From: Rhodocyclaceae bacterium
GTDB taxonomy: Bacteria; Pseudomonadota; Gammaproteobacteria; Burkholderiales; Rhodocyclaceae
Direction: 5' to 3'
DNA: 48,070 nt
Assembly: GCA_020445665.1 (NCBI GenBank)
Contig: JAGRGD010000318.1
Span: forward strand, 1 to 48,070
This document shows positions 6,034 to 39,635 of this stretch, piece after piece (within the stretch, counting starts at the first letter, position 1; the number at the start of each line of letters is the position of its first letter). The notes under the pieces are model-generated. The model did not search any database, was not told the DNA's origin, and worked only from the letters and a program-made list of their open reading frames with translations. The translations under genes and the position numbers were made by a program.

Positions 6034-7485
6034 TCAGTCGTCCCTCTCCAGGCCGTAGCGCGACAGCTTCGAGCGCAGTCCGACACGGGACAGGCCCAGC
6101 TCGCTGGCGGCGCGGGTCTTGTTCCAGCGGTGGCGGACCAGGGTCTCCTTGACGATCCGCGCCTCGAGCGACTCGAGGCGGGTCTTGAGGTCGCCATCAA
6201 GGCCAGCCAGCAGGTTCAGGGCCGGCTCCTGCTCCTCGGCACCGGCGCGCAGCACACGCGGCGACAGGTCGGCGGCGCGCAGCTCGGCGCCATCGGCCAG
6301 CGCCACCATGCGCAGGATCTCGTTGCGCAGCTCGCGCACGTTGCCAGGCCAGCGGTATGCGGTCAGGCAAGCCATCACCTCGCGCCCAAGGGGCTGGAAG
6401 CTGGTACCGAGGGAGCGTCCGATGCCATCGAGGAAGCTCTGCGCGATCAGCGGGATGTCCATCGGCCGCTCCCGCAAAGGCGGCACCGCGATCGTCACCG
6501 CCGCGAGGCGGTAGTAGAGGTCCTCGCGAAAGCGGCCGGCGGCCACCTCGGCCTCGAGATCTCGGTTGGTCGCCGTCACCGTGCGCACGTCGCAGGCCAC
6601 CGGCCGCGGTGCCCCAAGCGGCCGCACCTCGCCCTCCTGCAGGACCCGCAGCAGCTTGACCTGGAAGGCGGGTGAGGTCTCGCCGATCTCGTCGAGGAAG
6701 ATCGTGCCGCGGTCGGCCTGCTTGAACAGGCCCACCCGGTCCTCGAAGGCGCCGGTGAAGGCGCCCCGCTTGTGACCGAAGAGCTCCGACTCCAGCAGCT
6801 GGTCGGGCAGCGCGCCGCAGTTCTCGACGATGAAGGGCTCGTCGGTGCGGGAGCTGTGGTAGTGCAGGGCCCGCGCGAGGAGTTCCTTGCCCGTGCCCGA
6901 CTCGCCGGTCAGCAACACCGGGATGTCGTAGCGGGCCACCTTGGCGAGCAGGTCACACAGGGGGTTCATCGGCGAGTCCGCCGCCCGCACCAGGGCGTCC
7001 ACCATGTGACGGCGGCGGGACTCCTGGCGTTTGGCGGCGACGGTGTCGCGCAGTTCGGGTGCCGACGAGCGCAATTCGAGGGACAGGCGCTGGTTCTCGC
7101 TCTGCAGCCGCTGCAGCTCGACGGCCCCCTTGAGGGTCAGCAGCAGCTGCTCGGGTTGCCACGGCTTGAGGATGTACTGGTAGATGCCGCCATCGTTGAT
7201 GCCGGCGATGATGTCCTCGGATTCGGTGTAGCCCGAGATGATGATCCGCACCGTCTCCGGCCATTGCCGCCGAACCCGCTTGAGGAATTCCACGCCCGAG
7301 GTCTCGGGCATGCGCTGGTCACACAGCACCACCTGGATCCACTCCCGCTCCATGACCTCGGCGGCGGTGGCGGCCGAATCGGCGGTGAATACCTCGAAGT
7401 CCTCGTCCAGCGTCCGGCGCAGGGATTCGAGGGAGCGGATCTCGTCGTCGACGACCAGCACGGTGGGCAGCCGGTTCGCGTTCAT
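6034..7485 (-). CDS. hoxA: HoxA, NtrC-family sigma-54 activator of hydrogenase genes
   Basis: A 483-residue response regulator and the last gene of the long hup-hyp operon. The receiver domain (1-125) has the acidic pair near residue 13 and phosphorylatable Asp56 in CDQRMP. The central AAA+ domain has Walker A GESGTGKE (194-201), the sigma-54 contact loop GAFTGA (241-246) and Walker B TIFLDEIG (261-268). The C-terminus is a Fis-type helix-turn-helix ([19 protein letters not shown]). In known hydrogen oxidisers HoxA activates sigma-54 promoters of hydrogenase operons. Its ATG overlaps the hypX stop codon (ATGA) and sits behind AAGGAGG in the hypX 3' end. No cognate kinase (hoxJ) or sensor hydrogenase (hoxBC) is present in the window. 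Confidence 0.93.
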
Positions 7486-11707: not shown

Positions 11708-14062
11708 TCAGCTTCCTTCGGTCAGTTGGTGGATCGCGACCCAGGCCTGGCCGAGGGAGACGCCGCCATCGTTGGGCGGCGCCTGACGGGCCGACAGGAC
11801 CTTCAGGCCACGGGTCGCGAGGCGACGTGGCAGATCCCGGGCGAGGATGCGGTTGAGCATGCAGCCACCGGACAGGGCCACGGTGCGCACCCCGGTCTCC
11901 CGCGCTGCACGGCCGATCCATTCGTCGAGGGCGGTCAGCAGCGTGGCGTGGAACTGGGCGGCGCCTCGCGCGGGATTGGTTTCGTCGGCGAGGCGGGCGA
12001 GCATCGCGGTGAGATCCAGCTCTCCGCCGTCGATCGTCCAGCCGCCGGACAGGGCCATCGCCGGGCCGTAGGCTGCTGCGGCGCTTTCGAGCCGCATCGC
12101 GGCTTCGGCCTCGAACTCCATCGTCTCGCAGATCCCGAGCAGGCCCGCCGCGGCGTCGAACCAGCGCCCCAGGCTGGTACAGGTCGGCGACAGGTTCGGT
12201 CGCTCAATCAGCGCGGCGAGGCGGTCGGCGCCTCGATGGTGGCCGAATCGCGCGGCGATCTCGTCGGCGCGCCCCAGACTGTGCAGCATCGCCGCCGCCA
12301 TCCGCCAGGGCTCCCGCGCCGCCCGGTCGCCGCCGGGCAGGACGAGCCGGCTGAGGTGGCCGAGGCGTTCGAAGCCACCGCCTTCCAGATGCAGCAGTTC
12401 GCCGCCCCAGGCCGTGCCGTCGGTACCCATGCCGACGCCGTCGAGGGCCACGCCGAGTGCCGGGCCGACGTGCCGGTGCTCGGCCAGCACCGCGGCGACA
12501 TGGGCGTGATGATGCTGGACGCCGATGGCCGGGATGCCGAAGCGCTCGGCCAGCGCCGCCGCGGCGCGGGTGGAGTGGAAGTCGGGGTGAAGGTCATGGG
12601 CGACCACCTCCGGGCGAACCGCGAGGATCGCCATCAGGTGTTCGACCGCTTCGTCCATCGCGAGGCAGGTGGCGCCGTTGTCCAGGTCGCCGATGTGCTG
12701 GGAGAGGAAGGCCTCGTCGCCCCGCGCCACGCAGACCGTGTTCTTGAGCCAGGCGCCAAAGGCGACCACCGCCGGACCCTTGGCGCCGAGCTTGATCGCG
12801 CGCGGCGTGAAGCCCCGGGCGCGCCGTACGAAACGGTAGGCCGGCACCCGCTCCTGCAATTGCGGCTCGTCCACGATCACGACCGAATCGTCGGCGCGTA
12901 CGAGGATGTCCCGGTCGTGCAGCAGATAGGCGTCGGCGATCCCGGCCAGGCGCTGGACCGCGTCCTGGTTGTCGATGACCAGCGGCTCGCCGCCGGGGTT
13001 GGCGGAGGTCATGACCAGCGCCAGTTCCTGGGGCAGATCGAGCCAGGTGGTGCCGGAAGGGCGACCCGCATCGTCGTGGAAAAGGAGGTAGTGGAGGGGT
13101 GTGTAGGGCAGCATCAGCCCGATGTGGGCCAGCCCGGGCGCCACGCCCCACAGCTCATGGTCGACCACCTCGCGCTTCTCGGCGATGACGATCGGGCGCT
13201 CGGCGGTGACGAGAATCTGCTCCTCGCGACGCGACAGGTAGGCCCATTGGCGGGCCGAGGCGAGATTGGAGACCATTACCGCGAAGGGCTTGGCGTCGCG
13301 GTCCTTGCTGCGGCGCAGGCGCTCGACCGCCTCGGGGTTGCGCGCGTCGCAGACCAGATGGAAGCCCCCCAGGCCCTTGATCGCGACGATCTCGCCGGTC
13401 AGCAGGCGCAGCAGGGTGTCGGCCACCGGGTCGCGGGTGGCAACCCGAACGCCGGAGGACTCCAGCAGCGCCAGGGTCGGCCCACAGGCCGGACAGGCAT
13501 TGGGCTCGGCGTGGAAGCGCCGGTCGGCCGGCGAGTCGTACTCGTCCTGGCAGTCCGGGCACTGATCGAAACCCGCCATGCTGGTCAGCGCCCGGTCGTA
13601 GGGCAGCCCGCGGGTGATCGTGTAGCGCGGACCGCAGTGGGTACAGTTAATGAAGGGGTAGCGCCAGCGCCGGTCGGTCGGATCGAACATTTCGTCCAGA
13701 CAGGACGGACAGACGCCGGTGTCGTGCCCGATCGCAGTGGTCACCGCGCCGGTGCCGCTCGCCTCGATCGTGAAGCCCCGGTCTTCCAGATCCGGGGCGC
13801 CCACTGCCGACATGACGGAGTCGACCCGTGCCAGCGGCGGTGCCTCGCCGACCAGCCGCGCCATCAGGGCCGAGATGTCGCCGCGCGGCCCCTGGGCCTC
13901 GATTTCCACGCCCTCGCCATCGTTGCGCACCCAGCCCGACAGGCCCATTTCCTGGGCCAGCCGGAATACGAAGGGGCGGAAGCCGACGCCCTGGACCACG
14001 CCCCGCACACGAATGCGGCGGCGCTCCAGGCCAGCCTGGCGGGCGAGGCGCTCGTCACTCAT
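11708..14062 (-). CDS. hypF: HypF, carbamoyltransferase for hydrogenase maturation
   Basis: A 784-residue multidomain protein. In order: acylphosphatase domain ([12 protein letters not shown], about residues 21-32), two zinc-finger units (CPSC...CTHC and CPDC...CPAC, about 115-195), YrdC-like domain (about 210-390) and a Kae1-like carbamoyltransferase domain with HHHAH ([12 protein letters not shown]). HypF uses carbamoyl phosphate and ATP to carbamoylate the C-terminal cysteine of HypE. The start overlaps the hypB stop codon (ATGA). The length and all domains are intact. Confidence 0.96.
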
Positions 14063-15048
14063 GGCGCGTTCGCTGCCAGCCGGGACTCGAGCTCGGCGAT
14101 CCGGCGCTTGAGGGCATCCACGGTCTCGACGCGGGAGGCGGACACCCGCCCCAGCCCGCGCCCGATCCAGCCGAGCCAGGCATCGAAGCCCTCGCCGGTC
14201 GTCGCCGAGGTCCGGATCACCTCCAGGCGCGGATTCACGCGGCGTGCAAAGTCGATGGCCCGCTCGGCGTCAAAGGTCAGGTGTGGCAGCAGATCCACCT
14301 TGTTGAGCAGCATCAGGTCGGCCGCAGCGAACATGTCGGGATACTTCAGGGGCTTGTCCTCGCCCTCGGTGACCGACAGGATGACCACCTTGTGAGCCTC
14401 GCCCAGGTCGAAGGCCGCCGGACAGACCAGGTTGCCGACGTTCTCGATCAGAAGCAGGCTGTTCTCGGCCAGTTCGAGGCGCGGCAACGCCTGTCCGACC
14501 ATGTGGGCATCCAGGTGACAGCCCTTGCCGGTATTGATCTGCAGGGCACGGGCACCGGTTTCGCGGATGCGCTCGGCATCGAACTCGGTCTGCTGGTCGC
14601 CCTCGATGACCGCCACCGGCGTCCGGCCGGCCAGCTCGCGGATCGTGCGGCACAGCAGGGTCGTCTTGCCGGAGCCGGGACTGGACACCAGATTGAGGGC
14701 AAGAATGCCCCGCTCGGCCAGCCAGGTCCGGTTTGCGCCGGCGAGGCTGTCGTTCTTGCCCAGGATGTCCTGCTCGATGCGCACCATCTGGCCCTGGCTG
14801 AGGCCCGGCGCGTGGGCCCGGGCCGGCCCTTGACCGAAGTGCAGATGGTCTTCGCCGGCATGGACATGCCCCGGCGCCGATGCGCCGGCCGGGCCATGCC
14901 CGTGCGCAGGGTCGTGTTCGTGATGGGCGTGATGCCCGCCGCCCGCCGCCGGCCGCCACGCCACGGTCGCACCGGGTGCCGGGCGCACCGCGGGGCGCGC
15001 GCCGCCAATCGTCACTTCGCCACTACCGCAACCACATACCGTACACAT
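14059..15048 (-). CDS. hypB: HypB, nickel-insertion GTPase
   Basis: A 329-residue G3E GTPase that delivers nickel to the large subunit with HypA. The N-terminus starts [10 protein letters not shown], the high-affinity nickel motif CxxCGCG. A histidine-rich segment follows ([14 protein letters not shown], then [10 protein letters not shown], about residues 39-70), which in relatives stores nickel. The P-loop is SSPGSGKTT near residue 125; NKVD is near residue 245. I took the ATG at 15048 directly before Cys2, with GGAG about 10 bases upstream; a GTG three codons earlier is possible. It is separated from hypA by 39 bases and overlaps hypF. Confidence 0.95.
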
Positions 15049-15087
15049 CGCTTCCACTCCTGCTGCACCGGAGCCACCGGCCAGCGC

Positions 15088-15429
15088 TCATTCGACTTCC
15101 AGTTCGCGAACCCGCATCTCGGTGCCGGCCGTGGCCTGCACCTGATAGCTGCCGCATTTCGGGCAAGGGTCGTACAGGGCCGCAATCGGCACGGTCTCGC
15201 CGCAAGGCATGCACCAGCCGGCGCCGGGCACATCGACCACTTCCATGGTGGCTCCGTCAGCCACCGTATCACGCATTACCGCATCGAAACAGAAGCGCAG
15301 TGCCTCCACTTCGACCGATGACAGGGCCCCGATCTCGAGCACGATGCTCTTCACGCGTGCGAAGCCACCCTCGGTGGCGGCCTGCTCGACGATGCCCCGG
15401 ATGCCCTCGGCCAGCGACATTTCATGCAC
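15088..15429 (-). CDS. hypA: HypA, nickel metallochaperone
   Basis: A 113-residue protein starting MHEMSLAEGI, with His2 as nickel ligand, and two zinc CxxC motifs (WCMPCG and DPCPKCGS, about residues 72-93). HypA works with HypB in nickel insertion. The start is a GTG at 15429 that lies inside the end of hupK (8-base overlap), since the GTG CAT GAA reading gives the invariant M-H-E N-terminus. Translational coupling to hupK is therefore likely. Confidence 0.95.
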   Translation of the reverse strand: MHEMSLAEGIRGIVEQAATEGGFARVKSIVLEIGALSSVEVEALRFCFDAVMRDTVADGATMEVVDVPGAGWCMPCGETVPIAALYDPCPKCGSYQVQATAGTEMRVRELEVE

Positions 15430-16507
15430 GGATGGCTTCCTCCCCTTCCAGGTCCGCGACGTCCCATGCCACGCACGGATCGAGCGCCAGTGCGAGGCAC
15501 TGCACCTGAGACCTTGCAGCGTCGTCCCCGGTCGCCTTCAAGCCGAGAGTCTCCCTGAAGAACACCCCGGCGGGGTGGAAATTCCATTCGGTCGGGGCAA
15601 CGATCCGGTAGTCGGTCACCACGCCCGCCTCGACCCGCACGCCATGCATCAGCAGGCCGCGGGCGGTCTCGACGCAGGCCAGGCCCACGCCCGCAGACGC
15701 CGAGGCCGCATCCGCCACCGGACCGGCCGCCGGATCAGCCAGGACGCTGGCCACCCGCGCCAGTTCCACCACCCGCGCCACCACCCGGGCAGCGCAGCGC
15801 CGCCCGGCCGCCAGCAGGGACGCGACCACGGGCACCTTCGCCTGCCGGGCCAGCGCCCCGGTTTCGGCTGGCGCGTCATCGAAGACGGGCTGGCGGCAGA
15901 AGGCGGCGTCCGGCATCCCGTCCGTCAGCCTTGCGCTCCATGCCCCGGCGCCTACCTGGGGCAGGAGCGCGGTGCACTCGACGGCGACCGGCGCCGCGTC
16001 GATCAGCCGGGCAAGGACCTCACCCAGCGGACCTCCGCGGCGGCACGCGTCGCGCAGGGCAGCCGTATCCATTGCGGCATCGACCGCGAAACCACTCTCC
16101 GCCACCAGCGCGCGCAGGCCCGCGACAGCCGTTTCGGGCGCTTCCGCCGCGCCTGCCAGACGCCGGTGCAAGTCGGCGAACGCTTCACGGCGGTCCGTCA
16201 TCCCCAGACGCTGGGGCCAGTCGATCATCAGGCGCCACAGGTGCTCCTGGGCCAGCTCGACCAGGGTGGCGCGGTGGCGTGATCGCGGGGCAGACGGCGC
16301 GAGCCCCTGCGCCGCATCGACCGCCAGGCGGGCGGCCAGCCCCTGGGCCTGCCCGCACAGGCTGAAGAGGTTCGAGGCAAGCGTCACGGCCTCGTCGACG
16401 CGCCGGCCGTTCAGCAGATGCGCCGCCAGCGGACGGCCGTTCTCGACCCGCACGCGCCGGACGCAACCATGCTCGACGCCGACCCGCAGTTGCAGCCGCC
16501 CGGCCAT
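15422..16507 (-). CDS. hupK: HupK (HoxV), large-subunit-like assembly scaffold
   Basis: A 361-residue protein related to the hydrogenase large subunit but not an enzyme. The two active-site motifs are degenerate: RxCGxC becomes SLCGQAQG, and DPCxxC becomes DPCVAWDV. Each keeps its first cysteine and loses its second. In relatives HupK/HoxV serves as a scaffold for the Fe(CN)2CO group during assembly of oxygen-tolerant hydrogenase. I placed the start at the ATG at 16507, two bases after the hupJ stop; the long open frame upstream is the antiparallel shadow of hupJ. The gene also overlaps hypA. Confidence 0.88.
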   Translation of the reverse strand: MAGRLQLRVGVEHGCVRRVRVENGRPLAAHLLNGRRVDEAVTLASNLFSLCGQAQGLAARLAVDAAQGLAPSAPRSRHRATLVELAQEHLWRLMIDWPQRLGMTDRREAFADLHRRLAGAAEAPETAVAGLRALVAESGFAVDAAMDTAALRDACRRGGPLGEVLARLIDAAPVAVECTALLPQVGAGAWSARLTDGMPDAAFCRQPVFDDAPAETGALARQAKVPVVASLLAAGRRCAARVVARVVELARVASVLADPAAGPVADAASASAGVGLACVETARGLLMHGVRVEAGVVTDYRIVAPTEWNFHPAGVFFRETLGLKATGDDAARSQVQCLALALDPCVAWDVADLEGEEAIRA

Positions 16508-18920: not shown

Positions 18921-19541
18921 TCAGCCGGCCCCGCCGGGCATGAAGCGCGCGTCGCCGATTCGGCAGGCTTCTGCCTCCGAAGGACGCCCTGCCTCGTAAT
19001 CGTGGATCGACAGGGGTGCCGCATTGAGCCGCTCGGCGCCGCCATCGCGAGGGCGGACATCGACGCCCCATTCGCGAAGGACCGTCACGGCGGCCTCCAG
19101 CACCCGGGGCAGGCAGGCGCGCACCGGCTCCCGCAGGCTGCCGCCGAAGTCCTCGAGTTCGGCCGGCTGAACCCCGATCAGCACCATCTCGGCGGGCAGG
19201 CCCTCCACCAGCGCAGCCGACGCGATGACCTCCTGGAAGCCGGTCTGGTGCAGGCTCATCTTCTTGGCGCCCATGAAGCGGGGCACTTCGTCATCCCGCA
19301 CCAGCTTCATCGTGCCCGGCGGCAGGCCGTAGTCGATCGCGTCGAAGACCAGCAGGTGCGTGGCTTCGGTCACGTAGGGCAGCAGGTAGAGGCCCTGGGT
19401 GCCGCCATCCATGACCGTGACCGATTCGGGCAGTTCATAGGACGCGGCCAGTGCCTCGGCGCAGCGGATGCCAAACCCTTCGTCGGCCCATAGCAGGTTG
19501 CCGATGCCGAGGATCAGGACCCGGGGGGTGGATGGGTGCAT
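18921..19541 (-). CDS. hupD: HupD (HoxM), endopeptidase for the HupL precursor
   Basis: A 206-residue nickel-dependent maturation protease. The N-terminal LILGIGNLLWADEGFG carries the first metal-ligand Glu; FDAIDYG and SLHQTGFQEV provide the Asp and His ligands. It removes the C-terminal 15 residues of HupL after nickel insertion. The start at 19541 follows GGAG by 6 bases. It is the first gene of a new transcript: a terminator lies upstream at 19736-19762 and a sigma-54 type promoter at 19574-19589. Confidence 0.95.
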   Translation of the reverse strand: MHPSTPRVLILGIGNLLWADEGFGIRCAEALAASYELPESVTVMDGGTQGLYLLPYVTEATHLLVFDAIDYGLPPGTMKLVRDDEVPRFMGAKKMSLHQTGFQEVIASAALVEGLPAEMVLIGVQPAELEDFGGSLREPVRACLPRVLEAAVTVLREWGVDVRPRDGGAERLNAAPLSIHDYEAGRPSEAEACRIGDARFMPGGAG

Positions 19542-19573: not shown

Positions 19574-19589
19574 CGCAGGGTCCGTGCCA
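19574..19589 (-). promoter_or_regulatory. Sigma-54 type promoter upstream of hupD
   Basis: On the minus strand TGGCACGGACCCTGCG matches the -24/-12 consensus TGGCACG-N4-TTGCW except for one base in the -12 box. The GG and GC doublets are both present with correct spacing. The expected start of transcription lies about 20 bases before the hupD ATG. The same TGGCACGG core occurs upstream of hupS and the chemoreceptor unit. Confidence 0.75.
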
Positions 19590-19735: not shown

Positions 19736-19762
19736 AAAAAGGCCCCGCACTCAACGGGGCCT
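19736..19762 (-). terminator. Rho-independent terminator after the chemoreceptor gene
   Basis: On the minus strand AGGCCCCG (19762-19755) pairs perfectly with CGGGGCCT (19747-19740) around a 7-base loop, followed by four more Ts. It starts about 50 bases after the chemoreceptor stop codon and separates that unit from hupD. Confidence 0.9.
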
Positions 19763-19811
19763 GGCAGGCTCGGGTCCGGGCAGCGCGGCGGGCCCGGTCG
19801 GTCCGTCGCAA

Positions 19812-21098
19812 CTATTTCATCTGGCTCTCGATGCTGGCGAACAGGCTGTCGTAGATCTCGATCAGCGCCTCGCGGTCGGTGCCGCCCTTGATCCACTTGC
19901 GCTCGCTGGCGATCTGCACCGCCTGGCGCTCCATCTCGGACAGGCTGCGGCTGTCGATCTCCTCGCCGTGGATGATCAGGTTGGCGTCGGCCCGGGCCTT
20001 CTGGGCGAGACTGACGAGATTGACCGACGACTCCATGGCGCGGGCGCCCCCGCCGATGGTTCCGGCCAGGGCGTTGACCTGTTCCCCGGCGTCCGCCGAA
20101 CCGGCCAGACTGACCACCACTTCCTCGGCGGTACCACGGGCACCGGCCACCGAGTCGGAGAGGGTGCCGATCTGGCCCGTCGCGGCCTGCATCGCGCCGC
20201 TCATCGCCGAGATGGCCTCGGCGATCTCTTCGGCGGAGCGCTGGGCCTGGTCGGCCAGCTTGCGCACCTCGTCGGCGACGACCGCGAAGCCCCGGCCCGA
20301 CTCACCCGCGCGGGCCGCCTCGATGGCGGCGTTGAGGGCCAGCAGATTGGTCTGCTTGGCAATATTGTCGATGTGGGCGGTGATCTCGTTGATCGCGCCG
20401 GCCTTCTCGGCCAGTTCGGCCAGGGCGCTGACACCCGCCTCGGCCAGGCCATGGGCATCGCCGAGGGAGGTGGACATCCGCTCGGCGGCCTCCGACATGG
20501 AGCGCGCAGTGACCGCGAACTTGCCGGAGAGGGACTGGGATTCCTCTGCCTCGCGGGCGACGTCCGCGAGGGTCGTCGTGACGTGCTCGATGGCCATCGA
20601 GAGGCCGCGCTCGGAGCGCACGAAGATACGCGACAGCAGCGCTTCCCGGGCGACGGACTCCTGTGCCGTCGTGACCTGGTCCAGCATGATCTGGATCTGC
20701 TCCAGGACCCGCGCGAAGATGCCGTGCAGGCCGGTCGTCTGGAGTCGGCGCCACGGCCTGCCGTTGGCCACCGCGTCCATGGCGCCGAGGATCTCGCGGA
20801 AGGCGGTTTCGGTCTGGTCCAGCGCGGAGTTGAGGTCGACACGGATCGACTCGAGCACCGGATCGGAGAACTCGCGGGGCATCCGCTCCTGCAATTGCCC
20901 CTGCCCGACCTGGTGCATCAGCCCGTCGAGCTGGTTCAGCGCGTCGTCGCCGCGACGTGCAGGAGCAAGCAGCACGACAGCGGCCAGGGCACAGGCGGCC
21001 AGGGCCGCCCAAGGCGTCCAGAAAGCCAGGCCCGCCGCCGCAACGACCGCCACGAGCGCCAGGTGGCGCCGTTCAAAGCGCGAAGACAAGCTCTTCAT
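19812..21098 (-). CDS. Membrane-anchored methyl-accepting chemotaxis protein without sensor domain
   Basis: A 428-residue chemoreceptor. Residues about 12-46 form two closely spaced membrane helices, with no periplasmic domain between them. The cytoplasmic region ends in a signalling domain whose tip is [20 protein letters not shown] followed by [15 protein letters not shown]. There is no PAS domain in the protein itself, but the upstream gene encodes one, with a 26-base overlap. The pair looks like an Aer aerotaxis receptor split in two. No C-terminal CheR/CheB pentapeptide is seen. It is the last gene of the unit ending at the 19736 terminator. Confidence 0.9.
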
Positions 21099-21591
21099 AG
21101 CCCATTCCCATCTGTGTCATCACATCCACCAGGACCTGCGTGCCGGCACCGATCGCCTCCCGCGCTCCGGCGGCCTTCTCGGCCGCCAGCATCTGCGCAT
21201 AGACGGGGGTGATCGTTTCAATGGCACTGCGCTTCGGGCAGCGGCGAACCGAGGTGTAGCCGACGATGCCGCCGCTGGGGTCGAAGTCCGGCGTGATATG
21301 GGTGAATACCCAGTAGTAGCCCCCGTCCTTCGACATGTTCTTGACGTAGGCGAAGAACTCCTTGCCCGACTGGATGGTGTCCCAGGCGAGCTTGAAGGCG
21401 GCCCGCGGCATGTCCGGGTGGCGAATGATGTTGTGCTGGGAGCCGATCAGCTCGTCCTCGGAGTAGCCCGAGAATTCAACGAAGATCGGATTGCCGTAGG
21501 TGATGATGCCCTTCGGGTTCGTCTTGGAGACGATGAAGTCATCCTCGCGCATCAGCCGCTCGACCTGGGTCGGCGTGATGGCCCGTTTCAT
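21073..21591 (-). CDS. Soluble Aer-type PAS domain protein
   Basis: A 172-residue cytoplasmic protein. Residues about 8-125 form a PAS domain of the Aer class ([51 protein letters not shown]), the type that binds FAD and senses redox state in aerotaxis. The remaining C-terminal helix probably contacts the partner receptor. The ATG at 21591 follows AGGAGGG; the open frame before it is leader. It overlaps the chemoreceptor gene by 26 bases, so the two are probably made together. FAD binding is inferred from motif similarity. Confidence 0.87.
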
Positions 21592-21643
21592 GTGCCTGCC
21601 CTCCTGGTAACAACCGGTGTATCGGCGCGGAGAGCGGTGGCCT

Positions 21644-22012
21644 TTAGGAAATATGGCCCTGTCGTGGGTCGGCTTCGTCGCGCGACATGCGCGAAATGGC
21701 TGCATGTGTCTCCCAGGCCACCTGCAAGGCCACCCAGAAGCGGGGGTCGGTGCCGAAATAGCGCGCCAGCCGGACGCTGGTATCGGGCGAGATGCCCCGC
21801 CGGCCCCGGATCAGCTCGTTGACCCGGCGGCGAGAGACACCCAGCGCGCGCGCCAGGGCGTCCTGCGTGATGCCGGCGGGACGCATGAAGCGCGATTCGA
21901 GGAAGTGACCGGGCCGCAAGGGCCGCCGCCCCGGGGACGGGCGAACCGGCGCGTGCCGGGGCAGGAAAAAAGTCGGGCGGGACTTGCCGTCGCCGCCCAT
22001 CGTCGCCGTCAT
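21644..22012 (-). CDS. XRE/HigA-family DNA-binding protein without adjacent toxin
   Basis: A 122-residue protein whose C-terminal 80 residues match the HigA/VapI antitoxin helix-turn-helix (GITQDALARALGVSRRRVNEL, RGISPDTSVRLARYFGTDP, FWVALQ). About 40 residues of basic, proline-rich sequence precede it if the ATG at 22012 is used; the start could instead be the ATG at 21887, which gives the compact HigA form. No HigB-type toxin gene is next to it. It lies 52 bases before the PAS gene and behind a sigma-54 type promoter, so it may be a regulator of this unit. Confidence 0.75.
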   Translation of the reverse strand: MTATMGGDGKSRPTFFLPRHAPVRPSPGRRPLRPGHFLESRFMRPAGITQDALARALGVSRRRVNELIRGRRGISPDTSVRLARYFGTDPRFWVALQVAWETHAAISRMSRDEADPRQGHIS

Positions 22013-22083
22013 GTCGTCGATCGATAAAGGGAAGTGAGCACACGCCCGGGGGCCGGGGTGGACCCGCCGGGCGAGAGAACCAA

Positions 22084-22099
22084 TACAAGGTCCGTGCCA
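22084..22099 (-). promoter_or_regulatory. Sigma-54 type promoter upstream of the XRE-PAS-chemoreceptor unit
   Basis: On the minus strand TGGCACGGACCTTGTA matches TGGCACG-N4-TTGCW at every position but one (T for C in the -12 box). The 11 bases TGGCACGGACC are shared exactly with the hupD element. The expected transcript would start about 60 bases before the 22012 ATG. Confidence 0.75.
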
Positions 22100-22204: not shown

Positions 22205-22225
22205 CGCTCAGCGCTCAGCACTCAG
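22205..22225 (-). repeat. Three tandem 7-base repeats at the end of the unknown gene
   Basis: On the minus strand CGCTGAG, TGCTGAG and CGCTGAG follow each other directly, and the first copy contains the stop codon of the upstream 223-residue gene. An imperfect hairpin (CGGAAGGGCG at 22185-22194 with CGCCTTCCG at 22161-22169) lies just beyond. Together they may form the 3' end of that transcript. Confidence 0.6.
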
Positions 22226-22893
22226 CGCTTCCAGAACGCGAACCGGCTGCGCGACGCAGGCAGGGGCGCGATCGGCCGACCCTCTTCATCGACCAGCTGT
22301 CCGCCCCTGGCGGCATGATTCAGGACATCCCTCAGCATGTCGCGGTCGAGCGGCAGCGTTCCGTCGATCAGGTCGAAACTGACCGCCTCACGGCCCATGC
22401 GCTCCAGCCAGCCCATCAACTCGACCGAAACCGGGAAACGCGCCAGGTTGGGGGCCTTGAGGAAGCGGACGCGGCGCCCCGCCCATGGCACCGTGTCGGT
22501 ACCCGGCGCGGTCTCGCCGGGCGCTTCGTCAGCGGGTTCCTCAGTGGCCGTCAGTGGAACGGCAGGTGGCACCTTGACCCGGGCACGGGCGGGGTCGAGG
22601 GTCGGCAACATTGCGTCGATGTAACGCATCAGGTGGCTGGCCTTGAGGGGCTTGGCCAGCGTGCGGCTCGCCCAGCCGGAGCTCGCGGCGGATTCATCCA
22701 GTCGACAGATGGCCGGCGCGCCGAGCATCTCCAGCGGCGTGACGACCAGGTCCTGGGTCAGGTCGATGACCCACAGGTCAGCCGCACGGACGTCCTCCAC
22801 CCAGCGCCAGGCCTCCGCGCGCAGCCGGACCGTCGACTTGAGGACGAGCAGGTCCCGTGACGCCAGGTTGTCTGCTCCGAATGTCAGCTCCAT
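22222..22893 (-). CDS. Unknown protein with a receiver-like N-terminal domain (223 aa)
   Basis: A 223-residue soluble protein, start ATG at 22893 with GGGAG 8 bases upstream. The N-terminal 105 residues look like a degenerate response-regulator receiver: LWVIDL ends a predicted strand where the phosphorylated Asp would sit, and TLAKPLKASHLMRYIDAML resembles the conserved Lys-Pro end of receivers. A proline-rich acidic linker (about 110-145) follows, then a C-terminal domain of about 75 residues (RVRFLKAPNLARFPVSVELM) that I do not recognise. It lies directly downstream of hupC behind a strong hairpin. Function unknown; a regulatory or scaffolding role for the adjacent receptors is a guess. 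Confidence 0.7.
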   Translation of the reverse strand: MELTFGADNLASRDLLVLKSTVRLRAEAWRWVEDVRAADLWVIDLTQDLVVTPLEMLGAPAICRLDESAASSGWASRTLAKPLKASHLMRYIDAMLPTLDPARARVKVPPAVPLTATEEPADEAPGETAPGTDTVPWAGRRVRFLKAPNLARFPVSVELMGWLERMGREAVSFDLIDGTLPLDRDMLRDVLNHAARGGQLVDEEGRPIAPLPASRSRFAFWKR

Positions 22894-22945
22894 ATGCACT
22901 CCCGATTGCCGTGGCTGCATGTTCCGCCCCCGACGTATCGGACGC

Positions 22946-23010: not shown

Positions 23011-23736
23011 TCAGTTCTTGAACATGCGATAGCCACTGATCATGGTGCTGATGATGCTCTGGCGTCCCATGATGTCTTCACGGATCGCCGCGTAGACATG
23101 AAGAATCACAAAACACACGATCGCCCACATGCCCAGGTGGTGCCAGGTGTGGACATCCTGCGACTGCCCGAACAGGGGAATCACCCAGGTGGTGAACAGG
23201 GTGTGCGACCAGTGCCCGGCCTGGGCGCCTTCGCCGTACAGCGCAAAGCCGGTGGCGATCATGAACAGCGCCATGAACAGGAAGCCGAAGACCATGGCGA
23301 AACGCGCCAGCGGGTTGTGTCCCACATAGCGGTTCGGGTAGGGCCGGGTGAAGGTGTACCAGCGCAGCATCGAGAACAGTTCGCGCCAGTACGCGCCGGT
23401 GAAGATCGGCACGCTGAACAGCTCCCGCGAGTGGTGATTGCCGACGATCGCCCAGTACATCCGTCCCAGCAGGCCGATCGCCAGGACGTAGCCCGCCGCG
23501 AAGTGCACGAATCGGATGTAGCCCATCAGGAAGTTGGCGCTGGCCTCGCCCGGCACCGACGGCAATGGCGAGCCGATGAAATAGCCGGTGACGGAGAGCA
23601 CCGTGATCGCCAGCGCATTGACCCAGTGCCAGATGCGCACCGGCGCCTCATAGACATAGATCGACTTGATGCTGGCGGCGTGGGCGACGGCGTTGTCGTC
23701 GACGCCGGTCGCCGTGGCATGGCTGTGGTCTGACAT
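23011..23736 (-). CDS. hupC: HupC (HoxZ), membrane cytochrome b subunit of hydrogenase 1
   Basis: A 241-residue di-haem cytochrome b that anchors HupSL to the membrane and passes electrons to the quinone pool. Four membrane helices are visible; haem-ligand histidines are in WHWVNALAI (about residue 37), VHFAAGYVLA (about 78), and DVHTWHHLGMW plus VILHVYA in the C-terminal part. The start at 23736 has AGGAGGA upstream. It lies 21 bases after hupL and completes the hupSLC core. Confidence 0.95.
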   Translation of the reverse strand: MSDHSHATATGVDDNAVAHAASIKSIYVYEAPVRIWHWVNALAITVLSVTGYFIGSPLPSVPGEASANFLMGYIRFVHFAAGYVLAIGLLGRMYWAIVGNHHSRELFSVPIFTGAYWRELFSMLRWYTFTRPYPNRYVGHNPLARFAMVFGFLFMALFMIATGFALYGEGAQAGHWSHTLFTTWVIPLFGQSQDVHTWHHLGMWAIVCFVILHVYAAIREDIMGRQSIISTMISGYRMFKN

Positions 23737-26690: not shown

Positions 26691-26706
26691 TCCAAGAACC
26701 GTGCCA
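26691..26706 (-). promoter_or_regulatory. Sigma-54 type promoter upstream of hupS
   Basis: On the minus strand TGGCACGGTTCTTGGA has a perfect -24 half (TGGCACG) and TTG in the -12 half with correct spacing, but GG where GC is usual. It lies about 50 bases before the hupS start codon and 22 bases from an FNR-type box. It shares TGGCACGG with the hupD and chemoreceptor-unit elements. Confidence 0.72.
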
Positions 26707-29562: not shown

Positions 29563-31197
29563 ATGGTTCAGCGATTCACCATCAAGGCACGGCTGCTGCT
29601 CAGCGCCGTGATCTCGGTCCTCATCGCCACGGCGGTCGGCATCATCGGCTACGTCGGGCTGCAGGGCATGGAGCGGGCGAACCGGGCCGCCGCCGTTTAC
29701 GCCGAAGCGATCCGCTACCAGGTCGAGGTGGACATGTTCCACGACGGCCTGGCGAGCGTCGTCAACGCGGCCCTGATCGCGGGTCTGCGGCGCGATAGCG
29801 CCCTCTACGAGCAGGCCCGCGCCGACCTGGCGGAGCAGTCGAAGACCATGCAGGAAGACCTGGCGATCGTCGCCGGGCTGCCCCTCGAAGCGAGCGTGAT
29901 GACCCAGGTCGAGGCAGCACGCCAACCCCTCGAGGCCTATATCACCGGCGCCCGCGAGATCGTTGCCGAAGCCTACGACAACACCGATGCCGCCTTCGAA
30001 CACAAGCCGCGCTTCGACGCCCTGTTCGATCGCCTCGAGACGGAACTCGAGGCCCTGGGCGATACCATGCTGGCCCGCACCCAGGAAGCGCAGCTGCTGG
30101 CCGAGAGCGAAGCCGCCACCGACCAGCGGGCCATGGTCCTCGCCCTCGCTGTCGCCCTCCCCGTCATGCTGCTGCTGGCCTGGCTCACGGCCAACAGCAC
30201 TGCCCGGCGGATCGGCCAGCTCACGCGCTTCACCGAAGACCTCGCCCGGGGCGACGCCGACCTGACCCGCCGGCTGCCGGAAGACGGCCACGACGAAATC
30301 GCCGCCACCGCGCGTGAGTTCAACCGCTTCATGACCACCCTGGCGTCCCTGGTGGCGAATACCAAGTCCGCCGCCGAGCGGGTGGCGCTGACAACCCGCG
30401 CCCTCGCCGCCAGCTCGACACAGCTGGCCGCCAGTTCCTCGGAGCAGAACGACACCGCCGAATCGACCGCCGCGACGATCGAGCAGCTGACGGTGAGCAT
30501 CGGCTCGATCGCCGAGAGCGCGGAGCAGGTCCGCGAACTGGCCCAACTGAGCCTCTCCCGCACCCGCTCGGGGCGGCAGGGCATCGATGCGCTGATGACG
30601 GAGGTCCAGGCCGTCACCGCGGCCGTCAGCGACCTGTCGGAGTCGGCGACCCAGTTCATCCGCAGTACCGATGTCATCTCGACCATGACCCGACAGGTGC
30701 GCGAGATCGCGGACCAGACCAACCTGCTGGCCTTGAACGCGGCCATCGAGGCAGCCCGGGCCGGGGAACAGGGCCGCGGGTTCGCCGTCGTCGCGGACGA
30801 GGTCCGCGGACTGGCCGAGCGCTCGGCGGATTCCGTCGGCCAGATCGACAAGGTCACGAAGGATCTCGGCGCCCGCTCCGGGCTTGTCGAGGCCGCCATC
30901 CAGCGCGGGCTCTCGGCCCTCGAATCCAGCCGGGCCTGCGCCCAGCAGGTCCTCGACACGCTGGCCCAGGCCGACACCGCGGTCGGCGAATCGACGGACG
31001 GCATCGACGAGATCAGCCGGTCGGTGTCCGAGCAGCGCACCGCCAGCCAGGACCTCGCCAATTCGATCGAGCGGATGGCCCGCATGACCGAGCAGGGGCT
31101 CAACGCCGTTCGCCAGTCCGAGCGCTCGACGGCCGAACTCAACACGACGGCTGCGCAGCTGTCGGAACTGGTGAGTCAGTTCAGGACCGCCGCCTAG
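29563..31197 (+). CDS. Methyl-accepting chemotaxis protein with periplasmic helical sensor domain
   Basis: A 544-residue chemoreceptor. Membrane helix about 10-32, periplasmic region about 33-187 (predicted helical bundle, rich in acidic residues), second membrane helix about 190-208, HAMP domain about 210-262 ([22 protein letters not shown]), then the signalling domain with tip [26 protein letters not shown] lies about 14 bases before the ATG. The ligand is unknown. The stop codon TAG is the first three bases of a 12-base repeat shared with the end of the next gene. It faces the same way as the hybrid kinase downstream. Confidence 0.93.
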
Positions 31198-34799: not shown

Positions 34800-35080
34800 A
34801 CGGGGCTCCGGGCGGCGTCCAGATCGGCGAAGTAGCGATCCGGGTCGTAGTCGTCGTCGAGGGTCGCGGCGAGCGCCTCGAGGGCCTCCTCGATCTGCGC
34901 CCGCTCCGGCTCGTCGAGCACCTCCTTGGCAAAGCCGAGGGCCACCAGCACCCAGGTGCCGACCGGCTGCTCGCCGACCAGCAGCATGTTCACCTGCTCG
35001 CGCCGATCGCCCCGGACGACCCACGCCAGGGCGCCCCCCGCCTCGAGCGACTCGACCTGCATCGGCACCGACAGGCACAT
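34796..35080 (-). CDS. hybG: HypC-family chaperone of hydrogenase 2 (HybG/HupF-like)
   Basis: A 94-residue HypC-family protein starting MCLSVPMQVES with Cys2. The segment MLLVGEQPVGTWVLVALGFA is nearly the same as in HupF. The long C-terminus makes it HupF-like rather than a plain HypC. It sits 13 bases after hybD and overlaps hybE. It shares 38 identical bases with hupF. Confidence 0.9.
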   Translation of the reverse strand: MCLSVPMQVESLEAGGALAWVVRGDRREQVNMLLVGEQPVGTWVLVALGFAKEVLDEPERAQIEEALEALAATLDDDYDPDRYFADLDAARSPV

Positions 35081-35093
35081 GGCGACGAATCCC

Positions 35094-35612
35094 TCAGGCG
35101 GCCGCGCGCCGCTCGCGCGGCGGGCAGGCGTAGCCGTATTCGGCCAGTGCCGCATGGATGGCCGCCAGCGCCTCGGGCATCACCGCGCGCACCGCCTCGC
35201 TCTGCTCGAGCCCGAGGGAGACGTCGACCGGCTGGACGCCGACCACCACCACGTGGTTCGGCGCCCGCTCGGTGATCTCGAGGGTCGCCAGCACGTCCGA
35301 CAGGCCGACCTGGTGCGGCGACAGGCGGGCCCGGAAGAAGCTCGGCACCGCGTCGTCCTTCAGCACCACCACGCTCGCCGGCGGCTGACCGACCCGCACG
35401 CAGTCGGCGATCACCAGCAGGTCCAGATCCTCGAGGTCTTCGAGCAGCTCCATCGCGGCGGTGCCGCCATCGAGCACCACGAGGCCCGGTGCGAGCCGGC
35501 AGTCGCGCTCGAGCTGTTCGACGAGTCGCACGCCAACCCCTTCGTCGGTCAGCAGGATATTGCCGACGCCCAGCAGCACCGCGCGACGGCTTGGATTCGT
35601 TTCATTCGACAT
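35094..35612 (-). CDS. hybD: HybD, endopeptidase for the HybC precursor
   Basis: A 172-residue nickel-dependent protease. LLGVGNILLTDEGVGV carries the first metal-ligand Glu, VIADCVRVG and SPHQVGLSDVL the others. It cleaves the C-terminal extension of HybC. The ATG at 35612 was chosen because it has GGAG behind it; the open frame extends further upstream into the hybC side. It is distinct from HupD at 18921. Confidence 0.93.
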   Translation of the reverse strand: MSNETNPSRRAVLLGVGNILLTDEGVGVRLVEQLERDCRLAPGLVVLDGGTAAMELLEDLEDLDLLVIADCVRVGQPPASVVVLKDDAVPSFFRARLSPHQVGLSDVLATLEITERAPNHVVVVGVQPVDVSLGLEQSEAVRAVMPEALAAIHAALAEYGYACPPRERRAAA

Positions 35613-35754
35613 CTGATGCTCCGCTCCCACGACGGCCAGCCACGATGCGGTGGCGCTCGGCGAGGGAAATTCGAGAATCGGAGTGGCCGGCTCGCGCGGG
35701 CTTGCCTGTGCGGGCAAGACCGGCGCAAGCGGCTCCAGGCAGGTGGCCGTCATC

Positions 35755-37467
35755 TCAGGCCGCCCGGACCTTGACCACCTCGTGCTCCTCGGTATCGAGG
35801 ATATGCACGGCGCAGGCCAGGCAGGGGTCGAAGGAGTGCACCGTGCGCAGCACCTCGAGGGGCTTCTCCGGATCGGCCACCGGGTTGTCGATCAGGCACG
35901 CCTCGTAGGGCGCCATCTCGTCCTTCTCGTTCTTCGGCGCCGCGTTCCAGGTGGAGGGCACCACGCACTGGTAGTTCTTGATCTTGCCCTTCTCGATCAC
36001 CACCCAGTGGGACAGCGCGCCGCGGGGCGCCTCGTGGAAGCCGACCCCGGCGATCTCGCCCTGCGGGAAGTCCGGCGCGTTGAAGGTGTCGAAGTCGCCG
36101 CTGGCCATGTTCTCCATCAGGCGGCTCCACTGGCTGGCGAGGGTGTCGGTCTCGACCGCGCACATGATGGCGCGGGAGGCGTGACGGCCGATGGTCGAGT
36201 GCATCGCGTCGAGGCCGACCTCGATCTTGGCCAGCGACGAGACGGTGTCGAGCATCCCGGTGGCGTAGCGGGTGATGCCCTCGTGCTTCGAGGCCAGGCC
36301 GCACAGCACCCGCGCCAGCGGCCCGACCTGGGCCGGCTTGCCGTGGAAGGTGGGCGACTTCAGCCACGAATACTTGCCCTCGTCCTGGAAGTCCGTGTAG
36401 TTCGGCGTGGTCTCGCCCTCGAACGGGTGCAGCGAGGTGGCGTCGCCGCCGCCGTACTGGTACCAGGAGTGCTTGACCGCCTCGGAGACGCCGTCGCGGA
36501 AGTACGGGTCGCCGAAGGCCGTGATCGGCTTGAACTGCGACAGGTCGCCGTTCGGGATGTAGCCGCCGGGGATGTCGAAGATCGTGCCGGCGGCATCCTG
36601 CGGGATGTCGGGCACCGCGAGGTAGTTCACCACGCCGCGGCCCACCTGAGTCCACTCCGGGTAGAAGGCGCCGATCGCCGCCACGTCGACCAGATAGACG
36701 TTCTTGACGAAGTCGTCGAGCTTCTCCATCCAGGTCTTGATGGCCATCAGCCGCTCGACCGTCAGCACCGACTGCGAATCGGTGGACAGCGGGTTGGCGA
36801 CGCCGCCGACGGCCACGTTCTGGATGTGGGGCGTCTTGGAGCCGAGGATCGAGACGATCTTGTTGGCGTAGCGCTGGATCTCCAGGGCCTGCAGGTAATG
36901 GGCGACGGCCAGCAGGTTCACCTCCGGCGGCAGCTTCATCGCCGGGTGGCCCCAGTAGCCGTTCGTGAAGATGCCGAGCTGGCCGGTGCCGACGAAGCCC
37001 TTGAGCTTCTCCTTGACCTTGCGCATCTCGTGCTTGCTGTTGCCCGACCAGCTGGACAGGCTCTCGCCCAGCGCTGCAGCCTTGTCCGGATCGGCGTCGA
37101 GGGCCGAGACCACGTCCACCCAGTCGAGCGCCGACAGGTGATAGAAATGGACGATCTGGTCGTGCACCGCGTGGGCCAGGATGATCATGTTGCGGATCAG
37201 CTGGGCGTTGACCGGGATGTCGAGCCCAAGGGCGTTCTCCACCGCCCGCACCGAGCAGATCGCGTGCACCGTCGTGCACACGCCGCAGATGCGCTGGGTG
37301 ATCGCCCAGGCGTCGCGCGGGTCGCGGCCGAGCAGGATGTTCTCGACGCCGCGCCACATGGTGCCGGAAGACCAGGCCTTGCTGACCTTGCCGTTGTCCA
37401 CCTCCACGTCGATGCGCAGATGGCCCTCGATGCGGGTGACCGGGTCGATGGTGATGCGTTGACTCAT
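35755..37467 (-). CDS. hybC: HybC, large subunit of [NiFe] hydrogenase 2
   Basis: A 570-residue large subunit. Nickel ligands are in RICGVC (Cys61, Cys64) and DPCLAC (Cys549, Cys552); the 15 residues after His555 (starting ILDTEE) are removed by HybD. RIEGHLRIDVEV lies near residue 12. The ATG at 37467 follows GAGGAG. The N-terminus is shorter than that of HupL, as is usual for HybC. It lies 13 bases after hybB. Confidence 0.96.
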   Translation of the reverse strand: MSQRITIDPVTRIEGHLRIDVEVDNGKVSKAWSSGTMWRGVENILLGRDPRDAWAITQRICGVCTTVHAICSVRAVENALGLDIPVNAQLIRNMIILAHAVHDQIVHFYHLSALDWVDVVSALDADPDKAAALGESLSSWSGNSKHEMRKVKEKLKGFVGTGQLGIFTNGYWGHPAMKLPPEVNLLAVAHYLQALEIQRYANKIVSILGSKTPHIQNVAVGGVANPLSTDSQSVLTVERLMAIKTWMEKLDDFVKNVYLVDVAAIGAFYPEWTQVGRGVVNYLAVPDIPQDAAGTIFDIPGGYIPNGDLSQFKPITAFGDPYFRDGVSEAVKHSWYQYGGGDATSLHPFEGETTPNYTDFQDEGKYSWLKSPTFHGKPAQVGPLARVLCGLASKHEGITRYATGMLDTVSSLAKIEVGLDAMHSTIGRHASRAIMCAVETDTLASQWSRLMENMASGDFDTFNAPDFPQGEIAGVGFHEAPRGALSHWVVIEKGKIKNYQCVVPSTWNAAPKNEKDEMAPYEACLIDNPVADPEKPLEVLRTVHSFDPCLACAVHILDTEEHEVVKVRAA

Positions 37468-37480
37468 GGGGGGATTCTCC

Positions 37481-38650
37481 TCAATGGGCGGCCGCGGGGG
37501 CGGCGTGGTCTTCACGCGGCAGCACCGGGAAGCGACGGGTAATGACGATGTAGCCGAGCACCTCGATAGCGAACATGCCGATGGTGACCAGCAGCTCGGG
37601 TACGGACGGGAAGTAGCTCCAGCCTTCGCCGGTGTCGTAGCCGACCAGGAAGGCGTTGATGCGCAGCAGGCTGCCGCCCAGCATCAGCAAGGCGCCGGCG
37701 GAGAAAAGCCGGGCCGGGTTGCGGCGTTGCTCGACGCTACGCAGGAGCGCCAGCGGGGCGATGAAGCAGGCCGTCTCGAGCCAGAACATGACGCTCTGCA
37801 GGTTGGCCTCGAAGGCGTGGCCGAGGGCGCCGCGCACCAGGAGATCGCCGAAGCGCAGCACCAGGAACACGCCGAGCATGCCCAGCATGACCTTGGCCAG
37901 CGGGGTCAGCAGGTGCATCTCGATCTTGCGACGGTAGCCGGCTGCGGCAAGGCAGGACTCGAACAGCACCACCGCGTAGCCGATCGTGATCGCCGAGATC
38001 AGGAAGATCGCCGGCAGCGCCATGGTCTGCCACAGGGGGTGGATCTGGGTGCCGAACACCACCAGCAGGGAGCCGAGCGAGCTCTGGTGCATCATCGGCA
38101 GCACGGTGCCGAGGCCGATCAGGAAGAACATCGCCTTGCCGACCCGGCGCCGGGCGTTCTTCATGCCGAACTTCTCGAACACCGCCGGCGAGAACTCCAG
38201 CCACATCACCAGGATGTAGAGCGAGATGCAGGCCGCCACCTCGAACATCACCGAGTTGGGTGAGGCGTAGCCCGGCCACAGGATGTGCCAGAAGTTCCAG
38301 TAGCGACCGAGGTCGAAGATCACGCCGACCCCGGCCAGGGTGTAGCCGAACAGGCTCGCCAGCAGGGCCGGGCGCACCAGCGGGTGGTACTCGCCCTTGT
38401 TGAAGATGTAGACCAGCATCGCGACCGAGAAGCCGCCGCAGGCGAAGGCCGAGCCGATCACCACGTCGGCCACCACCCAGATGCCCCACGGGTAGCCGTC
38501 GTTGAGGTTCGTCACCGCGCCGAGGCCGGCGCTGAAGCGGATCGCCAGCACCGCCAGGGCCGCGAGGATCAGCACCGCGCAGACGAAGGTGGCCGGGCTC
38601 AGCAGGCGCCCGCCGACCGGCGCCGGGCTGGCATGGACATGCGCACTCAT
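37481..38650 (-). CDS. hybB: HybB, NrfD-family membrane subunit of hydrogenase 2
   Basis: A 389-residue integral membrane protein with about ten predicted helices, of the HybB/PsrC/NrfD family. It links HybA to the quinone pool and has no haem. PWGIWVVADVVIG near residue 54 and GYDTGEGWSYFPSVPELLVT (quoted in part) near the C-terminus are family features. The ATG overlaps the hybA stop codon (ATGA). Confidence 0.95.
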   Translation of the reverse strand: MSAHVHASPAPVGGRLLSPATFVCAVLILAALAVLAIRFSAGLGAVTNLNDGYPWGIWVVADVVIGSAFACGGFSVAMLVYIFNKGEYHPLVRPALLASLFGYTLAGVGVIFDLGRYWNFWHILWPGYASPNSVMFEVAACISLYILVMWLEFSPAVFEKFGMKNARRRVGKAMFFLIGLGTVLPMMHQSSLGSLLVVFGTQIHPLWQTMALPAIFLISAITIGYAVVLFESCLAAAGYRRKIEMHLLTPLAKVMLGMLGVFLVLRFGDLLVRGALGHAFEANLQSVMFWLETACFIAPLALLRSVEQRRNPARLFSAGALLMLGGSLLRINAFLVGYDTGEGWSYFPSVPELLVTIGMFAIEVLGYIVITRRFPVLPREDHAAPAAAH

Positions 38651-39633: not shown

Positions 39634-39635
39634 GC

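Follow-up and report, generated by a model that had tools for sequence, protein, structure and literature searches.

Bipartite receptors are a recognised class in the accessible part of a review (PMC13401364). In C. jejuni, according to the accessible text of the description, the stand-alone PAS protein CetB and the membrane receptor CetA are encoded by adjacent, co-transcribed genes, which follow each other in the order cetA-cetB with a 17-bp gap and whose levels are independent of sigma-28 and sigma-54 (PMC2628428). In M. gryphiswaldense, the CetBA2 system is encoded by overlapping genes, and FAD binding, interaction and an effect on aerotaxis were shown for it; several pairs occur per genome, and the accessible part of the report describes no hydrogenase context for CetB2/CetA2 (PMC12442639).

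The pair reported here lies in a stretch of 48,070 nucleotides from a Rhodocyclaceae bacterium (GCA_020445665.1, contig JAGRGD010000318.1), which is referred to as a whole as the window (Table 1). We regard it as very likely that the pair is a CetB/CetA-type redox-taxis receptor located in a variable slot of a hup hydrogenase cluster, with its own sigma-28-like promoter and with probable read-through from a sigma-54-type promoter. As in CetB/CetA, the PAS and the receptor genes are adjacent, and their conserved 26-base overlap predicts that they are co-transcribed. In contrast to C. jejuni, the order is cetB-cetA with an overlap instead of a gap, and sigma-28-like as well as sigma-54-like sites are present (PMC2628428). 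With CetB2/CetA2 the pair shares the overlapping cetB-cetA arrangement and FAD-pocket residues at the same spacing, and, similar to M. gryphiswaldense, the window's genome contains several pairs, a second PAS-receptor pair being encoded on contig C201 (PMC12442639). A preliminary description of this DNA had proposed a split Aer-type receptor composed of a PAS protein and a receptor without sensor domain, with a 26-base gene overlap and a position between hupC and hupD; all of this is borne out by the match to the Aer PAS domain, the receptor's anatomy, the open reading frame coordinates and the TIGR02125 and TIGR00140 matches on either side. Its statement that no established description of such an arrangement exists has to be withdrawn in view of CetA/CetB, CetBA2 and the bipartite class (accessible parts of PMC2628428, PMC12442639 and PMC13401364), and the CetA/CetB precedent likewise rules out a new kind of receptor.

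Table 1. Positions of the pair, its control elements and its neighbours in the window.
Feature	Position	Strand	Basis
CetA-like chemoreceptor gene	19812..21098	-	428 aa; MCPsignal Pfam E 8e-30
CetB-like stand-alone Aer-type PAS gene	21073..21591	-	172 aa; PAS_3 E 1e-14
PAS stop region / receptor start overlap, 26 bases	21073..21098	-	ORF coordinates
Sigma-28 (FliA)-like promoter motif TAAA-N16-GCCGATA, directly 5' of PAS gene	21620..21646	-	motif match
HigA-like HTH gene	21644..22012	-	TIGR02607 83 bits (cut-off 47.7)
Sigma-54-like promoter motif 5' of higA-like gene	22086..22099	-	motif match
orfX, ORF between hupC and higA promoter	22222..22896	-	ORF call; without Pfam/NCBIfam match
Intrinsic terminator 3' of receptor gene	19740..19762	-	stem-loop and T run; hairpin also in G358
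Sigma-54-like promoter motif 5' of hupD	19576..19589	-	motif match
Sigma-54-like promoter motif 5' of hupS	26693..26706	-	motif match
hupD (context)	18921..19541	-	TIGR00140
hupC (context)	23011..23736	-	TIGR02125
HoxA/HupR-like sigma-54 activator beyond hyp genes	6034..7485	-	receiver, Sigma54_activat and Fis HTH

On the minus strand, the cluster reads hupS-hupL-hupC-orfX-(sigma-54-like site)-higA-like-(sigma-28-like site)-PAS-MCP-(terminator), followed by (sigma-54-like site)-hupD-hypC-hupG-hupH-rubredoxin-hupK-hypA-hypB-hypF-hypD-hypE-HoxX-like-HoxA-like. The names rubredoxin, hupK, HoxX and HoxA are presumed, and the sigma-54 activator at the end of the cluster is what we take to be HoxA/HupR. 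The higA-like gene and orfX were absent from the earlier feature list. The higA-like gene recurs in related hup clusters, whether or not they hold the pair, and is perhaps a hup-cluster regulator; a HigB-type toxin gene was not noticed beside it. D. aromatica RCB has the same hup order, likewise followed by a second, Hyb-type cluster, and its hydrogenase-1 cluster is given as hupSLCDFGHI..hypABF; in the accessible part of that work hupC (VIMSS581360) is followed by hupD (581361), and higA and the pair are absent from its table (PMC2907700). In the window the second, Hyb-type hydrogenase cluster extends over 34820-40769 (HupL 45%, HupS 44%, NrfD-like protein). Moreover, a 4HB-type chemoreceptor is encoded at 29563-31197 divergently from hupS, and a 58% relative of it stands at the same place in a genome of the same genus, G357 (L190:3877-5505, minus).

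The PAS protein is a separate, soluble protein related to the PAS domain of Aer. The PAS domain of E. coli Aer (8dik) was its top match in a profile search of solved structures (E 2e-33), and Foldseek aligned its AlphaFold2 model (pLDDT 93.6) to 8dik with a TM-score of 0.94 by target length. The PAS fold is shared and the pocket is similar, while E. coli Aer is one protein and the window's pair is two. The FAD pocket of CetB2 is reported, in the accessible part of its description, to comprise His54, Asn55, Arg58, Phe67, Trp71, Asn86, Arg117 and Val100 (PMC12442639). Seven of these eight residues have counterparts at the same spacing and at an offset of one in the window's PAS protein (H53, N54, R57, F66, W70, N85 and R116), as judged by residue numbering and spacing only, and Val100 is replaced by Ile99. 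The seven matching residues are invariant in 18 of 18 aligned PAS sequences. By analogy with CetB2, the PAS protein is predicted to bind FAD.

The receptor contains a membrane segment and an MCP domain without a sensor domain, as expected of a CetA-type partner. Its AlphaFold2 model (mean pLDDT 82, pTM 0.44) begins with two short helices, residues 7-25 and 29-44, which are followed by HAMP-like helices and the signalling rod, and neither the model nor the Pfam scan revealed a periplasmic or sensor domain. The HAMP family of CetA is reportedly defined by specific residues. In the window's receptor the linker is HAMP-like, with two HAMP-like helices in the model and with the conserved motifs N..LDQ.E..FRE and GLHG in the alignment, while Pfam finds no HAMP domain in it; C. 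jejuni CetA, by contrast, is described with one in the accessible text (PMC2628428). In the second pair of the window's own genome and of G060 (L058 and L060), the receptor seems from the alignment to be without the membrane hairpin and is perhaps a soluble partner.

Directly 5' of the PAS gene, 27 nt from its ATG, stands the motif TAAA-N16-GCCGATAC, the -35 box of which overlaps the stop codon of the higA-like gene, which itself ends 52 bases before the PAS ATG. The motif is identical in G358, a genome of the same genus, while the spacer differs. The pattern TMAA-N15/16-GCCGATA has 17 exact sites in the window's own genome, including the one in the window, compared with three for a backward control. 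Pfam searches on the frames behind ten of the 17 sites returned motA, three HD-domain proteins and one HDOD protein, a Cache-domain protein whose frame agrees with that of a receptor found in another search, a PAS protein and a periplasmic binding protein, while two frames gave no family; several of the remaining sites had no convincing gene behind them. Scored against a sigma-28 consensus, 19 of 99 PAS upstream regions reached at least 10/12 (1.7% of shuffles), and 6 of 31 type-1 pairs, the window and G358 included, reached at least 9/12 (5% of shuffles). A promoter of the sigma-28 type is likely for this pair and for some of the receptor family, and the motif points to the flagellar regulon as the pair's presumable basic control. 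The spacer of 16 (one of 15 is more common in sigma-28 promoters), the missing Pfam HAMP match and the lack of a good sigma-28 match in most other type-1 pairs count against the explanation that we prefer, as do the C. jejuni gene order with its 17-bp gap and the independence of cetA/cetB levels from sigma-28 and sigma-54 (PMC2628428). In Dechloromonas, the pairs have another recurrent, unassigned upstream stretch. The perfect rho-independent terminator proposed earlier behind the receptor gene stands as far as its 9-bp perfect stem and the following TTTT are concerned, and the bare stem-loop folds at -18.3 kcal/mol with a z-score of -4.6; for the 43 nt that include the flanks, the z-score reaches only -1.8. 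In G358 the hairpin is kept, with fewer Ts after it.

The DNA between the higA-like gene and hupD varies among related clusters. For comparison, 25 clusters of the window's type in which both hupC and hupD were read were used (10 + 13 + L181 and L182), the set being exclusive of L051, L090, L189 and L201-L203, which are of another type with adjacent hupC and hupD. The pair lies between hupC and hupD in one of the 25, in G358, where the order hupC-orfX-higA-PAS-MCP-hupD is identical to that of the window; a conserved place in hup clusters is not observed for it. Fifteen of the 25 (16 of 26 window-type clusters with the window) have a higA-like gene between hupC and hupD. In the window, L082, L091, L181 and L200, hupC and higA are separated by orfX, which matches neither a Pfam nor an NCBIfam family. 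In the 15 clusters, the stretch from higA to hupD holds the pair once, other DNA of 1.3-4.6 kb ten times and nothing much four times (L082, L088, L190, L200). The three slots that were annotated differ in content, with a glutathione-peroxidase-like gene and an AAA ATPase gene in L081, a TonB-like gene in L086 and, in L091 of G060, the gene of a protein of 1287 aa whose middle domain matches hydrazine synthase alpha (12098-15961; E 1e-7). Such a collection of unrelated genes and nearly empty slots would be expected if the pair were a neutral passenger, one of several genes taken up by the slot with no tie to hydrogen. We give this reading somewhat less than an even chance, the kept gene order and terminator hairpin in G358 and a second, separate closeness to hup in G029 speaking against it. 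The order and the hairpin are kept at a dS of about 0.6 per site for the pair, within 0.44-0.82 between the window and G358. Purifying selection acts on the pair, with dN/dS values of 0.079 for the PAS and 0.139 for the receptor gene, compared with 0.052 (hupC) to 0.271 (hypC) in nine neighbouring genes.

In a receptor tree of 33 rows, the window and G358 are grouped (100/100), and the deeper forks are without resolution, naming no donor. G049, of the same genus, has its pair elsewhere, and this pair groups with that of G060 (100/98). In G357, hupC, higA and hupD follow one another without the pair, and this genome, which is 89% complete, gave no receptor match at E 1e-60; its slot offers a natural comparison. 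The pair seems to have landed at hup within a single lineage, in two species of one genus. The case illustrates how a metabolic cluster can take in a portable two-gene redox receptor that carries a promoter motif of its own.

Across genomes, the pair is mostly not linked to hup. The receptor was detected at E <= 1e-70 in 46 of 395 family genomes, and HupL, which was sought in all 46, lies within 10 kb of it in three (G000, G029, and G358 by reading at a contig end), drafts with HupL on another contig being compatible with a link. In G029 the pair is 3 kb from HupL, and this is also the single one among 33 stretches around family PAS relatives that has hup genes (L051), where the 33 include the second pair of the window's own genome and several end at contig ends. 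No hup cluster was found near the pair at 80 database loci, many of which have flanks of less than 10 kb and at least six of which repeat genomes of the family survey; weak single matches, namely HupL with 52 bits at L163 and HigA alone at L124, were not counted. In nine genomes of genus g61 (G675, G628, G606, G658, G492, G512, G649, G275, G169) the pair and HupL share a contig but are 23-33 kb apart, measured edge to edge. This spacing was not counted as linkage, because hup queries against the whole intervening stretch of one of them, G275, gave no hup gene beyond the cluster. Together with the single occurrence among the 25 related clusters, these counts exclude hydrogenase linkage as a general rule. 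No description of a hup-embedded receptor was recognised among the open-licence papers listed, on hydrogen taxis and otherwise, most of which were judged from titles and the starts of abstracts.

The sigma-54-like pattern TGGCAC-N5-YTG occurs three times in the window, 5' of hupS, the higA-like gene and hupD, versus 0.74 sites expected, and 2 of 100 shuffles reach three. The -12 box of sigma-54 promoters has the consensus TTGCW, and that of the higA site is TTGTA. Counting sites with at least 11/13 consensus positions within 250 nt (about 1% in mononucleotide shuffles), 12 of 24 clusters have one 5' of hupS, 5 of 16 5' of higA and 15 of 25 5' of hupD, the window included. The higA sites occur in exactly those five clusters that have orfX, and G357 has a good site at hupD only, with none at hupS or higA. 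In the window, a sigma-54-type motif is present upstream of the pair on the same strand, but in front of higA. Because the higA-like gene stands between this site and the PAS gene, the site is assigned to higA, and because L082, L091 and L200 have it there in the absence of the pair, it does not depend on the pair.

These observations bear on hydrogen-coupled taxis, in which the pair would belong to the hup regulon and would be induced together with the hydrogenase by HoxA and sigma-54, letting cells that oxidise H2 navigate by redox state. The location inside hup on the same strand, with no terminator-like site reported on the minus strand between higA and PAS, the sigma-54-like core common to hupS and hupD and enriched there in relatives, the HoxA-like activator in the same cluster, the arrangement kept in G358 and the proximity to HupL in G029 would all fit. 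Nevertheless, we consider this reading rather improbable in the face of the linkage counts across genomes and clusters, the small share of clusters with a higA site, the lack of sites at hupS and higA in G357 and the pair's own sigma-28-like motif. Of the proposals in the preliminary description, the sharing of the sigma-54 core with the hydrogenase genes is confirmed, the promoter called the pair's own belongs to another gene, and a general coupling to the hydrogenase, with pairs mainly next to hup genes, is contradicted, the pair being found mainly away from hydrogenases. What survives of hydrogen-linked energy taxis is the lineage-specific placement at hup and possible read-through, by which a pair in a hup cluster may come under the control of that cluster. 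A wiring through two regulons, with basal sigma-28 transcription, HoxA/sigma-54-dependent read-through from higA raised together with the hydrogenase and H2 oxidation resetting the redox level that is sought, might follow from this, and we hold it to be improbable.

The overlap of 26 bases characterises the receptor family, and its exact length and frame are a rule across Beta- and Gammaproteobacteria at the database loci. Beside the window, the overlap of the longest open reading frames is exactly 26 bases in 14 of 24 family PAS loci, and the others show overlaps of 116, 35, 53, 8 and 62 bases (five loci), gaps of 21, 12 and 12 bases (three) or no receptor (two); two of these others, L053 and L054, also have an ATG at 26. 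Of the 80 database loci fetched, 12 had no readable receptor frame or ended; in the remaining 68, a receptor ATG exactly 26 bases before the end of the PAS stop is present in 56 and absent in 12. Counted without choosing, the ATG at 26 occurs in 21 of 33 family loci, 66 of 80 database loci and 8 of 8 others (the window, L181 and L183-L188). It sits inside a Tyr codon of the PAS gene. Where Tyr is encoded at this place, TAT, which provides the ATG, is used in 21 of 26 family, 66 of 69 database and 8 of 8 other loci, whereas TAT makes up 24%, 48% and 17%, respectively, of the remaining Tyr codons in these genes. Because TAT is enriched at this codon, the receptor start codon appears to be kept, and the overlap speaks for translational coupling of the PAS protein and the receptor. 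A programmed frameshift at the overlap, giving a fused one-piece Aer besides both proteins, would also fit the length and frame kept across both classes, but it is very improbable given that the kept element is the receptor ATG itself and that translational coupling explains the overlap more simply. As a recurrent feature, the overlap offers a simple mark for finding such two-gene receptors.

With the pair read as a CetB/CetA-type receptor, the FAD-bound soluble PAS protein would sense the redox state of the respiratory chain. Contacting the membrane receptor directly at its HAMP-like linker, it would pass on the signal, and the receptor would then drive CheA as any chemoreceptor does. Redox sensing and docking to the linker are proposed here because of the analogy to the CetA/CetB and CetBA2 precedents. 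Both proteins would be made in step by means of the translational overlap, from a transcript that would start at the pair's own sigma-28-like promoter and end at the terminator before hupD, and to which read-through from the sigma-54/HoxA-type higA promoter would probably add.

A better candidate for taxis tied to hydrogenase is another receptor, whose gene looks bound to a hydrogenase operon: it is encoded directly after hupD in a second type of hup cluster (HupL 67-69% to that of the window in the six clusters read). As read from its sequence, two membrane helices enclose about 150 periplasmic residues, and HAMP and MCP domains are present. With its N-terminal 275 residues as query, it was found at E 1e-40 in 10 of 395 family genomes from eight genera, and hupC-hupD stand immediately upstream in all ten (L224-L233; further loci are L051:6146-7777, L090:11088-12731, L189:4291-5931 and L203:9769-11418). 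It had no match in the window-type clusters searched and none at E 1e-30 among 369 genomes drawn from the class. Because G094, of another family of the same order, has it as well (L189), this receptor is not necessarily confined to the family. It makes the idea of taxis tied to hydrogen oxidation testable. In G401, genes that are 27-28% like hydrogenase small and large subunits follow this receptor (L203:11429-13931) and possibly encode a hydrogen-sensing regulatory hydrogenase.
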